Part shown: positions 38,627-61,483 of the stretch, one piece after another | Layout of the letters: each line of letters starts with the position of its first letter | How positions within the stretch are numbered: the first letter of the stretch is position 1 | NCBI RefSeq assembly: GCF_013085465.1 | Contig: NZ_CP049838.1 | Coordinates: 4,464,001 to 4,528,000 of the forward strand | DNA: 64,000 nucleotides | Direction: 5' to 3' | Source of the DNA: Streptomyces asoensis | GTDB taxonomy: Bacteria; Actinomycetota; Actinomycetes; Streptomycetales; Streptomycetaceae | Notes under the pieces: generated by a model | Told to the model about the DNA's origin: nothing | Databases searched by the model: none | Seen by the model: only the letters and a program-made list of their open reading frames with translations | Translations under genes and position numbers: made by a program

Positions 38627-38643
38627 TCTGACGCTCCGTCAGA
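38627..38643. promoter_or_regulatory. TetR-type operator, site A of the shared regulon
   Basis: Perfect palindrome: TCTGACG-CTC-CGTCAGA, between the EthD-like gene and the SDR gene. It matches sites at 60571-60587, 60637-60651 and 61461-61483. Confidence 0.8.
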
Positions 38644-38670
38644 TAATTCGCCAGAGGCAAGGGGGCTCCG

Positions 38671-39456
38671 ATGTCACTGCTCACCGACAAGACCGTCGTC
38701 GTCTCGGGAGTCGGCGCCGGGCTCGGTCACCAGGTCGCCGCCGCGGTCGTCCGGGACGGCGGGAACGCCGTGCTGGGGGCGCGGACCGAGGCGAATCTCG
38801 CGAAGAGCGCGGCCGTGATCGATCCCGAGGGGGCGCGTACGGCGTACCGGGTCACCGACATCACCGACGAGGGGCAGTGCGAGGCGCTCGCGGAGCTGGC
38901 GCGGGAGCGGTTCGGGGGGATCGACGCCGTGGTGAACGTGGCCGCCTGGGACTCCTACTTCGGCGGGGTCGAGGACGCCGACTTCACGACCTGGCAGTCG
39001 GTGATCGACGTGAACCTGCTGGGGTCGCTGCGGATGGCGCGGGCGTGTCTGGCCGGGCTGCGGGTGCGGGGCGGGTCGGTGGTGTTCATCGGGACGCAGT
39101 CCGCCGTGGCGGCCCCCTCGCAGGTGCGGCAGGCGGCGTACGCGGCCTCCAAGGGCGCGCTGACCAGCGCCATGTACTCGCTCGCGCGGGAGTGGGGTCC
39201 GCACCGGATCCGGGTCAACACCGTGCTGCCGGGGTGGATGTGGGGGCCGCCGGTACAGGCCTACGTCCAGTTCACCGCGCAGACGGAGGGGGTCGCGGAG
39301 GAGGAGGTGCTGGGGCGGCTCACCGAGCGGATGGCGTTGCCCGGGCTGGCGACGGACGGGGATGTGGCGGACGCGGCGGTGTTCCTGGCGTCGGACCGGG
39401 CGCGGGCGATCACGGGACAGTCGTTGCTGGTCAACGCCGGGGAGCTGATGCGTTGA
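38671..39456 (+). CDS. SDR family oxidoreductase
   Basis: 261 residues. The Rossmann motif is altered to VVSGVGAGLGHQVAAAVV; the catalytic Tyr-Lys lies in QAAYAASKGALTSAMYSLAR with the Ser in FIGTQSAVAAPS. Typical of 3-oxoacyl reductase/alcohol dehydrogenase-like classical SDRs. GTVLPGW-type segment (NTVLPGWMWGPP) follows. Predicted to be under the operator at 38627. Confidence 0.9.
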   Translation: MSLLTDKTVVVSGVGAGLGHQVAAAVVRDGGNAVLGARTEANLAKSAAVIDPEGARTAYRVTDITDEGQCEALAELARERFGGIDAVVNVAAWDSYFGGVEDADFTTWQSVIDVNLLGSLRMARACLAGLRVRGGSVVFIGTQSAVAAPSQVRQAAYAASKGALTSAMYSLAREWGPHRIRVNTVLPGWMWGPPVQAYVQFTAQTEGVAEEEVLGRLTERMALPGLATDGDVADAAVFLASDRARAITGQSLLVNAGELMR

Positions 39457-39594
39457 GTTCATGTAGGTGAACGCGAACCACCATACCGAATACCTTTACC
39501 TCCCTTTGACCTTACGCTTACTTGTCGTGTTCACGCGGCAGCGCCCACGATGAGCGCCGGGCTGAACGCCGGTCTGAACCCTGGGAGGGCGCAC

Positions 39595-41163
39595 ATGAAC
39601 GGTCTCGACTGGGCCGTGCTCATCGGCTATTTCGGCGTGATGGTCGCGATCGGCGTCTGGTCGCACAAGCGCGTCGACAACGTGAGCGACTTCTTCACCG
39701 CCGGCGGCAGGATGCCCTGGTGGCTGTCCGGCATCTCGCACCACATGTCGGGCTACAGCGCGGTGATGTTCACCGGGTACGCGGGCATCGCCTACACCTA
39801 CGGCGTCACCTCCTTCGTCACCTGGTCCTTCCCCATCGCGCTCGGCATCGCCATCGGCTCGAAGCTGTTCGCGCCGCGCATCAACCGGCTGCGGTCACGG
39901 CTCCATGTGGCTTCCCCGCTGGAGTATCTGAAGAACCGCTACGACCTCAAGACCCAGCAGGCGCTGGCCTGGTCGGGGATGCTGCTGAAGATCGTGGACG
40001 TCGGCGCGAAGTGGGCCGCCATCGCGACCCTGCTGTCCGTCTTCACCGGGATCTCCCTCAACCAGGGCATCCTCATCACCGGCGCGATCACCGCCGTCTA
40101 CTGCACGATCGGCGGTCTGTGGGCGGACGCGCTGACCGAACTCGGCCAGTTCGTCATCCAGTTGCTGGCCGGCGTCGCGATGTTCGTCGCCGTCGTGCTG
40201 AAGCTGAACGACAAGGGCATCGGGTTCCTGGACGCCTGGGACCAGCCGGCGCTCCAGGGCCACGACAAGCCCCTGGTCGCCCAGTACGGCACGGTGTTTC
40301 TGCTCGCGTTCCTGTTCATCAAGCTCTTCGAGTACAACGGCGGCATGCTCAACCAGGCCCAGCGGTACATGGCCACGGCCACCCCGAAGGAGGCCGAGCG
40401 GTCGGCGCGGCTGTCGGCGGTGCTGTGGCTGGTCTGGCCCCTGGTGCTGTTCTTCCCGATGTGGATGTCGCCGCTGCTGGTGACGTCGAACAAGCCGGAC
40501 GGCTCCGACTCCTACGCCCTGATGACCGAACAGCTGCTGCCGCACGGCCTGCTGGGGCTCGTCATCGTCGGCTTCTTCTCCCACACGATGGCCATGTGCT
40601 CGTCCGACGCCAACGCCATCGCCGCCGTCTTCACCCGGGACTGCGCGCCGGTGATCTGGGCCAGGGCGCGGGAGTGGAACCAGCGGTCGGGGCTGATCGC
40701 GGCGCGGGTGGCGACCGTCGTCTTCCTCGGTCTCTCCATGGCGGCGGCCACGCAGGTCAACTCCCCCGCCTTCAAGGACATCATCACGGTCGTCATCAAG
40801 TGGGTGGCCGGACTGATGGGCCCGATGGCCATCCCGATGATGCTGGGCCTGCTGCGCCCGTTCCGCCGCTCCGGTCCGACGGCCGCGCTGACCAGCTGGT
40901 CGATGGGTCTGCTGGCCTTCTGGCTGGTCAACTACCCGATCAACTGGAACGTCGACGGCGGAGTGCCGCTCCAGTACCAGGTGTCGATCCCGCTGGCCGT
41001 GTCGCTGCTCCTCTACATCCTCATCGGCTTCATCAAGCCCGAGGACACCCCGGAACGCCTCGCGATCATCGAACAGATCAACACGGACGGGGACGGCGGC
41101 GCTTCGGCCGCCGCGCAGGTGCCGCGGCCCAAGGACGAGGTCCCCACGGCGGTGACGGACTAG
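39595..41163 (+). CDS. Sodium:solute symporter (SSS family)
   Basis: 522 residues from ATG 39595 (GGGAGG upstream); an ATG at 39550 is less likely. About 13-14 helices. VDNVSDFFTAGGRMPWWLSG, then ISHHMSGYSAVMFTGYAGIA, is the SSS signature start. GIAYTYG and the LADALTEL-like segment support a sugar (SglT-like) substrate over proline or pantothenate. It stands alone; TTGACC at 39507-39512 in an AT-rich stretch is a possible -35. Confidence 0.9.
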   Translation: MNGLDWAVLIGYFGVMVAIGVWSHKRVDNVSDFFTAGGRMPWWLSGISHHMSGYSAVMFTGYAGIAYTYGVTSFVTWSFPIALGIAIGSKLFAPRINRLRSRLHVASPLEYLKNRYDLKTQQALAWSGMLLKIVDVGAKWAAIATLLSVFTGISLNQGILITGAITAVYCTIGGLWADALTELGQFVIQLLAGVAMFVAVVLKLNDKGIGFLDAWDQPALQGHDKPLVAQYGTVFLLAFLFIKLFEYNGGMLNQAQRYMATATPKEAERSARLSAVLWLVWPLVLFFPMWMSPLLVTSNKPDGSDSYALMTEQLLPHGLLGLVIVGFFSHTMAMCSSDANAIAAVFTRDCAPVIWARAREWNQRSGLIAARVATVVFLGLSMAAATQVNSPAFKDIITVVIKWVAGLMGPMAIPMMLGLLRPFRRSGPTAALTSWSMGLLAFWLVNYPINWNVDGGVPLQYQVSIPLAVSLLLYILIGFIKPEDTPERLAIIEQINTDGDGGASAAAQVPRPKDEVPTAVTD

Positions 41164-41172
41164 GGGCTGCCC

Positions 41173-60570: not shown

Positions 60571-60587
60571 ACTGACGGTTCGTCAGA
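60571..60587. promoter_or_regulatory. TetR-type operator, site B
   Basis: CTGACG-GTT-CGTCAG (60572-60586) is a perfect palindrome; the outer bases (A and A) do not pair. It lies 36 bases before the LLM start. Confidence 0.75.
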
Positions 60588-60636
60588 TTCAGCGGATGCC
60601 GCCGACTGTGGCACCGGGCTCCCGGATGGTCAATAG

Positions 60637-60651
60637 CTGACGAACGGTCAG
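60637..60651. promoter_or_regulatory. TetR-type operator, site C
   Basis: CTGACG-AAC-GGTCAG, one mismatch in the right arm. It overlaps the stop codon of the upstream SDR gene and lies 65 bases (centre to centre) from site B. Confidence 0.6.
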
Positions 60652-61418
60652 ATGACCGAAACGCCCGCCAGCCATCCCCCGTCGATCACGAACGGCTGCC
60701 CTGTGATGTACGACGAGTCCTCCGAGGTGAGGAAGAGGGCGAGCCGGGCCACCTCTTCCGCGCGGCCGATCCGGCCCAGGGGGACGAGCTTGCGGTAGAG
60801 GGAGTCGAGGGCGCGGGTCGTCTCCTCGGGGTCGGAGTCCGGCTCCAGCCGGGAGGGGTTGGACATCGCGGTGTCGACGGCCCCGGGACACACCGCGTTG
60901 ACCCGGATACGGCGGGGCGCCAGCTCCAGGGCGGCGACCCGGGTGAGGCCGAGTACGGCGTGCTTGGTCGCCGCATAGGCGCCCACGGCCGCCATGCCGG
61001 TGAGCCCGGTGTAGGAGGCGGTGTTGACGATGGTGCCGCCGTCGGACAGCTCCGGCGCGGCGGTCCGGATGCCCAGGAAGCAGCCGACCTGGTTGACCCG
61101 TACGACCTGCATGAACTCGTCGAGGGGGGTGTCGACGAGGGCGTTGAAACGCAGGATGCCGGCGTTGTTGACGAGGCCGTCGAGATGGCCGTACGCCCGC
61201 TTGGCCTCCCGCACCGCCGCGATCCACTCCTCCTCCACCCCCACATCGAGGTGGACGTACAGCGCGCCGATCTCCTCGGCGAGTGCCCGCCCCTGCTCGT
61301 CGAGCACGTCGGCGACGACCACCTCGGCACCCTCCTCCCGGAACAGCCGCGCCTCCTGCTCGCCCTGGCCGCGCGCCGATCCGGTGACGAGGACCACCCG
61401 TCCGTCGAGCTTGCCCAT
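60648..61418 (-). CDS. SDR family oxidoreductase
   Basis: 256 residues from ATG 61418 (AGGGAG upstream). The cofactor motif is VVLVTGSARGQGEQEARLF. The active site has NTASYTGLTGMAAVGAYAAT with Tyr-x3-Lys as YAATK. NAVCPGAVDTAMSN follows. Typical NAD-preferring classical SDR (GARGQG is common among steroid and terpene alcohol dehydrogenases). Same strand as the LLM operon; its own operator (site D) lies 43 bases upstream. Confidence 0.93.
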   Translation of the reverse strand: MGKLDGRVVLVTGSARGQGEQEARLFREEGAEVVVADVLDEQGRALAEEIGALYVHLDVGVEEEWIAAVREAKRAYGHLDGLVNNAGILRFNALVDTPLDEFMQVVRVNQVGCFLGIRTAAPELSDGGTIVNTASYTGLTGMAAVGAYAATKHAVLGLTRVAALELAPRRIRVNAVCPGAVDTAMSNPSRLEPDSDPEETTRALDSLYRKLVPLGRIGRAEEVARLALFLTSEDSSYITGQPFVIDGGWLAGVSVI

Positions 61419-61460
61419 GCCGGCTCCCTTCGCATCGGTGGAGCTCAGCATCGTATCGCC

Positions 61461-61483
61461 GCATCTGACGAATCGTCAGATGC
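61461..61483. promoter_or_regulatory. TetR-type operator, site D
   Basis: The best copy: arms GCATCTGACG and CGTCAGATGC, perfectly complementary, separated by AAT. It stands upstream of the SDR gene and downstream of nothing on the same strand. Confidence 0.85.

Follow-up and report, generated by a model that had tools for sequence, protein, structure and literature searches.

Does a short palindrome that recurs at two distant loci of a Streptomyces asoensis chromosome place the genes beside it under common control, and if so, which protein recognizes it? The stretch analyzed here, called the window throughout, comprises 64,000 nucleotides (positions 4464001-4528000) of a 10.04-Mb single-contig genome. 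A sequence-only reading had proposed that CTGACGN3CGTCAG occurs four times in it (sites A to D) and joins both loci into one catabolic regulon under a TetR-type repressor encoded elsewhere. Our analysis, in which the palindrome was extended to the 19-mer ATCTGACGN3CGTCAGAT, suggests with a probability of roughly 0.8 that this sequence is the operator of a regulator carrying the TetR_C_38 domain (PF19352), most likely a repressor of about 20 catabolic operons until a ligand, probably a coenzyme A (CoA) thioester, releases it. The enrichment of the motif, its placement, its co-occurrence with the regulator and the recurrence of target families were computed; from these we infer binding, repression, ligand and substrate.

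The palindrome in the window

Three of the four proposed copies are exact (A, B and D), but C is only a near copy with one mismatch. Sites A, B and D are intergenic and near gene starts; C overlaps the last bases of a short-chain dehydrogenase (SDR) gene at 60648-61418. Site D does form a 23-base palindrome at 61461-61483, as had been noted, and contains the exact 19-bp core ATCTGACGAATCGTCAGAT.

38628..38642: operator A (predicted), CTGACGCTCCGTCAG, exact CTGACGN3CGTCAG, between divergent genes
60572..60586: operator B (predicted), CTGACGGTTCGTCAG, exact, 37 bases upstream of an LLM (luciferase-like) gene
60637..60651: operator C (predicted), CTGACGAACGGTCAG, one mismatch, 102 bases upstream of the LLM gene
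61461..61483: operator D (predicted), 23-base palindrome, exact core at 61465-61479, 47 bases upstream of the SDR gene

Gene calls come from a heuristic gene finder made for this analysis and trained on the GC-rich window, of which 18% is non-coding by its calls. Markov models (order 0-3) derived from the window sequence predict 0.007-0.023 exact copies per 64 kb, so that at least three would arise with a probability of ~2e-6. When up to two mismatches to the 15-mer are allowed, the window holds seven matches in total, below the shuffle mean of 9.04, and the remaining three (4675, 14813 and 19985) carry two mismatches each.

The palindrome across the genome

Among the outcomes that would refute a regulon, the sequence-only reading had named a motif that is common and scattered at random over the genome. 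This did not come true: the exact 15-mer has 18 copies in the genome, compared with 1.1-3.5 expected from the same models and none of the control pattern (the reversed, equally palindromic sequence), although some copies lie off promoters. With one mismatch the 15-mer yields 148 matches; these take in background, because the reversed control already yields 30. Among six such sites with poor flanks that were examined, five lie inside genes (L042-L046) and one at a gene end (L047). The flanking bases make the motif more specific, and the 19-mer is used below with a limit of one or two mismatches as stated. At two mismatches or fewer it has 29 sites in this genome (reversed control, 0), 26 of which are not wholly within a predicted gene and 13 of which fall in the 77 kb from 4502626 to 4579986, across the window's right end.

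Chance palindromes or transcription terminators are a very improbable explanation of the sites. At least two exact copies at gene ends, at 7498869 (L027:2570-2584), with a T run after it, and at 8951287 (L029:2588-2602), do look terminator-like rather than operator-like, and the 30 control matches to the one-mismatch core point the same way. Against this stand reversed controls of 0 for the 15-mer and the 19-mer in this genome and for the 19-mer in all 396 genomes of the phylum sample described below, as well as the recurrence of target families; chance and terminators were ruled out as a general explanation.

A TetR-family regulator accompanies the palindrome

The regulator was sought where operator sites cluster. 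The best candidate for the predicted TetR-type regulator, judged in silico by co-occurrence and by operators at its own gene, is indeed encoded outside the window.

chr 4545021-4545656: candidate TetR-family regulator, PF19352 (TetR_C_38), 17 kb beyond the window edge

Its gene and the closest pair of operators are ~3 kb apart. The protein matches PF00440 at 26.8 bits (cut-off 24) and PF19352 at 241 bits (curated cut-off 23.9), and its model is all-helical with an EthR-like fold (predicted local distance difference test, pLDDT, 92.8). The nearest named relatives come from S. rishiriensis (98%) and other Streptomyces. Seven residues of the predicted recognition helix (S48, A50, F52-F56) are invariant in 34 relatives, in keeping with a near-invariant operator.

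Each of 101 Streptomyces genomes sampled contains one match to the candidate at E <= 1e-40 (65-100% identity), and co-variation is therefore uninformative within the genus. The 19-mer at one mismatch or fewer, the limit used in all comparisons of genomes unless noted, occurs in 81 of these genomes at 507 sites, with a reversed control of 0 in each.

Beyond the genus, presence and absence are informative. Our phylum sample was a single draw of 396 Actinomycetota genomes, 12 of them Streptomyces and 384 others, in which a wide gap separates strong PF19352 matches (E <= 1.1e-22) from weak ones (from 6e-7). All 15 non-Streptomyces genomes with a strong match carry the 19-mer, versus 16 of the 369 others. 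Ten of the 15 have 4-13 copies and five a single site; among the 16, 15 have one copy and one (G163, 62% complete) has three, such that three or more copies are found in 10/15 versus 1/369. Thirteen of the 369 have weak PF19352 matches only, and no site. The co-occurrence is spread over nine families, and in three of these (f16, f29 and f3, with 18, 10 and 14 genomes listed) the sole genome with a strong match is also the sole genome with sites. The contrast is imperfect in f14, where G121 has one site and no PF19352 match, and in f17, the family of G163.

The operator is also found at the regulator's own gene or operon, as an exact or one-mismatch copy, in four of the 15 distant genomes with a strong match (start codons of our own choice):

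G388: operator overlapping the GTG start of tetR, one mismatch of the 19-mer
G231: exact core at -67 of tetR
G320: one-mismatch core at -57 of tetR
G124: exact 19-mer before an isochorismatase-tetR pair

The S. asoensis tetR gene has only a two-mismatch version of the operator. In Streptomyces this version, CTGACGNCATGACAG, overlaps the tetR start codon in 79/80 and 39/40 loci. We set it aside as proof of autoregulation, since site-poor genomes conserve it just as well. Across Streptomyces, a stretch of ~60 bases ahead of tetR is nearly unchanged (L017:960-1035; L050-L169) and includes a -10-like element, TAAGCT, directly before the start; the gene is perhaps leaderless.

Might the palindrome instead be the operator of another transcription factor, with the PF19352 protein a conserved neighbor or a co-inherited gene? 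The regulator gene persists in site-poor Streptomyces, where its own operator is degenerate, and both G163 and G121 have sites without a PF19352 match. We nevertheless consider this unlikely in view of the 15/15 versus 16/369 co-occurrence over nine families, the clean contrasts in f3, f16 and f29, and the operators at tetR in four distant genomes.

Several observations weigh against assigning the palindrome to the TetR_C_38 protein. Eleven of the 15 distant genomes have no operator at the tetR promoter, and five have a single site. The degenerate start-codon site is conserved equally in site-poor Streptomyces, and a leaderless promoter would explain it as well. Twenty of the 101 Streptomyces genomes lack a site at one mismatch or fewer although the regulator is present (all 20 have sites at up to two mismatches, 104 in total versus 2 in the control). 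Two of the five single-site genomes, G116 and G407, have a more distant type of regulator alone (36% identity). In S. asoensis itself, sites at 3108597, 7668030 and 8150657 lie in genes and those at 2040845, 3020866, 7498869 and 8951287 at gene ends; for others, among them 4921794 and 9889352, no target gene is evident. Finally, the Fisher test of co-occurrence (p ~9e-19 when any copy counts, ~2e-15 when at least three are required) ignores shared descent, and motif and E cut-off were picked post hoc, the cut-off with the table in view, though the gap from 1e-22 to 6e-7 is wide.

The more distant type is a second PF19352 regulator (L213-L216) with 34-38% identity to the candidate; G378 and G201 have it alongside the first type.

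Target genes in S. asoensis

By position of the sites, the regulon in this genome would comprise roughly 20 promoter regions. The claim that the window loci form one regulon held up in silico insofar as the sites mark one catabolic regulon; its size was understated, both in promoter regions and in reach, which extends to other classes. Sequential action of the window enzymes in one pathway, which that reading also suggested, did not gain such support. The genes in the window are:

37722..38624, minus strand: 300-aa protein at site A, without Pfam or PDB match
38671..39456, plus strand: SDR (NF005909), divergent from the 300-aa protein gene
59417..60535, minus strand: LLM oxidoreductase, first gene of the operon behind sites B and C
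57522..59252, minus strand: Amidohydro_3 protein, D-aminoacylase-like, same operon as the LLM gene
56047..57525, minus strand: aldehyde dehydrogenase (ALDH), last gene of the LLM operon
60648..61418, minus strand: second SDR, behind operator D

The label 'EthD-like' given earlier to the site-A gene was not borne out: the 300-aa protein has no Pfam, NCBIfam or PDB match, and its fold model is poor (pLDDT 52). It has 2145 homologues at E <= 0.001, and names among the best 120 are 'hypothetical' or 'uncharacterized', with 'Dehydratase' from one source for one of them (P0358). The nearest matches of the Amidohydro_3 protein are D-aminoacylases, and an amide step in the pathway is therefore possible.

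Outside the window the targets are acyl-CoA catabolic operons. Those clustered near its right end are:

4530189: before Amidohydro_2 and LLM
4535623, 4535650: between FadD and Ltp2-like thiolase / ChsH2-type OB / enoyl-CoA hydratase
4548718, 4548791: between acyl-CoA dehydrogenase (ACAD) + F420H2-dependent quinone reductase family protein, and thiolase
4556087: before ChsH2-type OB protein
4561294, 4561318 (L031:294-332): before ATP-grasp CoA ligase, a tandem one-mismatch pair with a spacing of 24 bases
4564467: before flavin reductase
4573938: between SDR / ACAD / alcohol dehydrogenase (ADH) and cyclase
4579881, 4579970: between Amidohydro_2 / two ACADs and CoA ligase

Others are scattered over the chromosome:

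163084: DAP-dehydrogenase-like, CMD
1944283: SRPBCC
1996173: OB and thiolase
2780593 (L021:2594-2608): PorA family (PF11271), site 191 bases upstream of the gene
3196273: thiolase
3977698: CoA ligase
4953182: ChsH2-type OB / MaoC / thiolase
5469090: 167-aa protein without assignment
6186269: glyoxalase family
7051315: LLM

The PorA-family gene perhaps gives the regulon an uptake function.

Placement of the sites also bears on the sign of control. Some are at least ~100 bases ahead of gene starts, which would fit an activator or a regulator that acts in both directions. We regard this as improbable: many operators are 5-50 bases from predicted starts, and TetR-family catabolic regulators are mostly repressors. 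An example is KstR (PMC1995591).

Targets shared with distant genomes

To compare targets, 49 distinct sites at non-Streptomyces loci were set against 44 regulon proteins of S. asoensis. Six loci where the gene finder gave no gene (L177, L180, L183, L213, L214 and L216) were left out; these carry sites or regulators of G357, G407, G116 and G201. Three of the 49 sites have no neighbor gene within 350 bases and three are inside a gene. Of the first genes beside operators, 41/61 match the comparison set (E <= 1e-8), 16/61 at 50% identity or more, versus 4/94 and 0/94 for promoter-first genes in 20 random 8-kb stretches of a single genome, G468; when second genes of operons are counted, the figures are 61/94 and 20/94. 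Three matches are TetR itself, and 1 of 61 hits is owed to an ACAD near 2040845 that was included in the set although it lies on the wrong side of its site.

The recurring targets include genes of the window. Homologues of the operon-B Amidohydro_3 protein (60-67% identity) stand directly behind the operator in four distant genomes, and those of the 300-aa site-A protein beside it in two (L233 and L218; 55% and 34%). A DitZ-like protein recurs at 65-68%, OB and thiolase at 52 and 72%, and an ACAD pair with one member at 60-62% and its partner at 45-46%. The regulator of G468 has Iamia, Aquihabitans and Acidimicrobiales as its nearest named relatives, and the regulon therefore reaches another class; from sequence comparison it appears to recur in other classes of the phylum, Acidimicrobiia among them.

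A different possibility, rather less probable than not, is global control: the regulator would switch several degradation pathways, and the window operons at A, B and D may serve different substrates. The targets are scattered over the chromosome and redundant (four ACADs, five thiolase-fold proteins, three AMP-forming CoA ligases and three LLMs), as such a switch would predict. That FadD-, ACAD-, Ltp2-, OB- and DitZ-like genes recur behind the operator in distant genomes argues against such a switch.

A proposed pathway and its control

We propose that a TetR_C_38 dimer sits over the promoters of ~20 operons and represses them, and that an intermediate of the pathway would bind the repressor, probably in the form of a CoA thioester, and free the promoters. 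In some lineages the protein may also control its own gene. The operons would encode the breakdown of a lipophilic acid, probably polycyclic and terpenoid- or steroid-like, by CoA ligases, acyl-CoA dehydrogenases, enoyl-CoA hydratase and an Ltp2/ChsH2-type aldolase, together with DitZ/PtmU3-like amidohydrolases, LLM and F420-type reductases, SDRs and ALDH.

Two Amidohydro_2 proteins of the regulon find their best matches in the PDB in the amidohydrolase-fold proteins DitZ (8uyr) and PtmU3 (6omp), a likeness at the level of homology. A regulon thiolase-like protein and an OB-fold protein best match 6ok1_A (Ltp2) and 6ok1_B (ChsH2), the two parts of an aldolase of steroid side-chain degradation. 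The names DitZ and PtmU3 are linked to diterpenoids, and proteins of these types presumably use CoA thioesters of diterpenoids or steroids, the steroid link coming in part from PDB labels. The guess of a terpenoid- or steroid-like substrate gains indirect support from these homologies.

More tentatively, and with rather less than even confidence, we suggest that the regulon predates the split of Streptomyces and Acidimicrobiia, having kept one TetR_C_38 protein and a near-unchanged operator, that it is devoted to the breakdown of a widespread class of polycyclic terpenoids other than cholesterol, and that its unassigned enzymes, the 300-aa site-A protein among them, catalyze new steps. A regulator found in all 101 Streptomyces sampled is now tied to an operator, ~20 target promoters and a coherent enzyme set. 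If the proposal is true, many generic or 'hypothetical' annotations become one testable system, and a route opens to what Streptomyces and Acidimicrobiia degrade with these enzymes.

Relation to known TetR-family systems

No recognized description of the operator or regulator was among the matches listed from the open-access literature, a body that does not cover most subscription journals; novelty of the system is accordingly provisional. KstR (Rv3574), which controls the mycobacterial cholesterol/lipid regulon, is a TetR-type protein with a palindromic operator before many lipid-catabolic genes and its own gene; its operators often lie between divergent genes, with two copies in one place (PMC1995591). 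The system described here resembles it in its TetR-type candidate, its own palindrome, lipid-catabolic targets and sites between divergent genes; the own-gene operator is present in 4/15 distant genomes and degenerate in Streptomyces. It is set apart by operator sequence, TnnAACnnGTTnnA for KstR versus CTGACGN3CGTCAG. MftR, another mycobacterial TetR protein, responds to long-chain acyl-CoA and has been studied in connection with the mycofactocin gene cluster (PMC8728441). The acyl-CoA-type ligand that we propose would be a point of likeness, but the MftR operator, T-N2-GGCA-N5-TGCC-N2-A, is unlike our palindrome. Control of the KstR or MftR type was rejected because the operators differ.

By predicted structure, the candidate is closest to EthR of M. 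tuberculosis, which is its nearest solved fold (template-modeling score 0.75-0.81 over ranks 1-25), at 18-20% identity across that fold. In sequence, too, EthR is the best match, chiefly through the DNA-binding part. Its DNA motif differs in being larger and more complex, and it occurs in multiple copies (PMC4482099). The acyl-CoA-binding regulators FadR and DesT, both solved with acyl-CoA, rank lower among the fold matches of the candidate.

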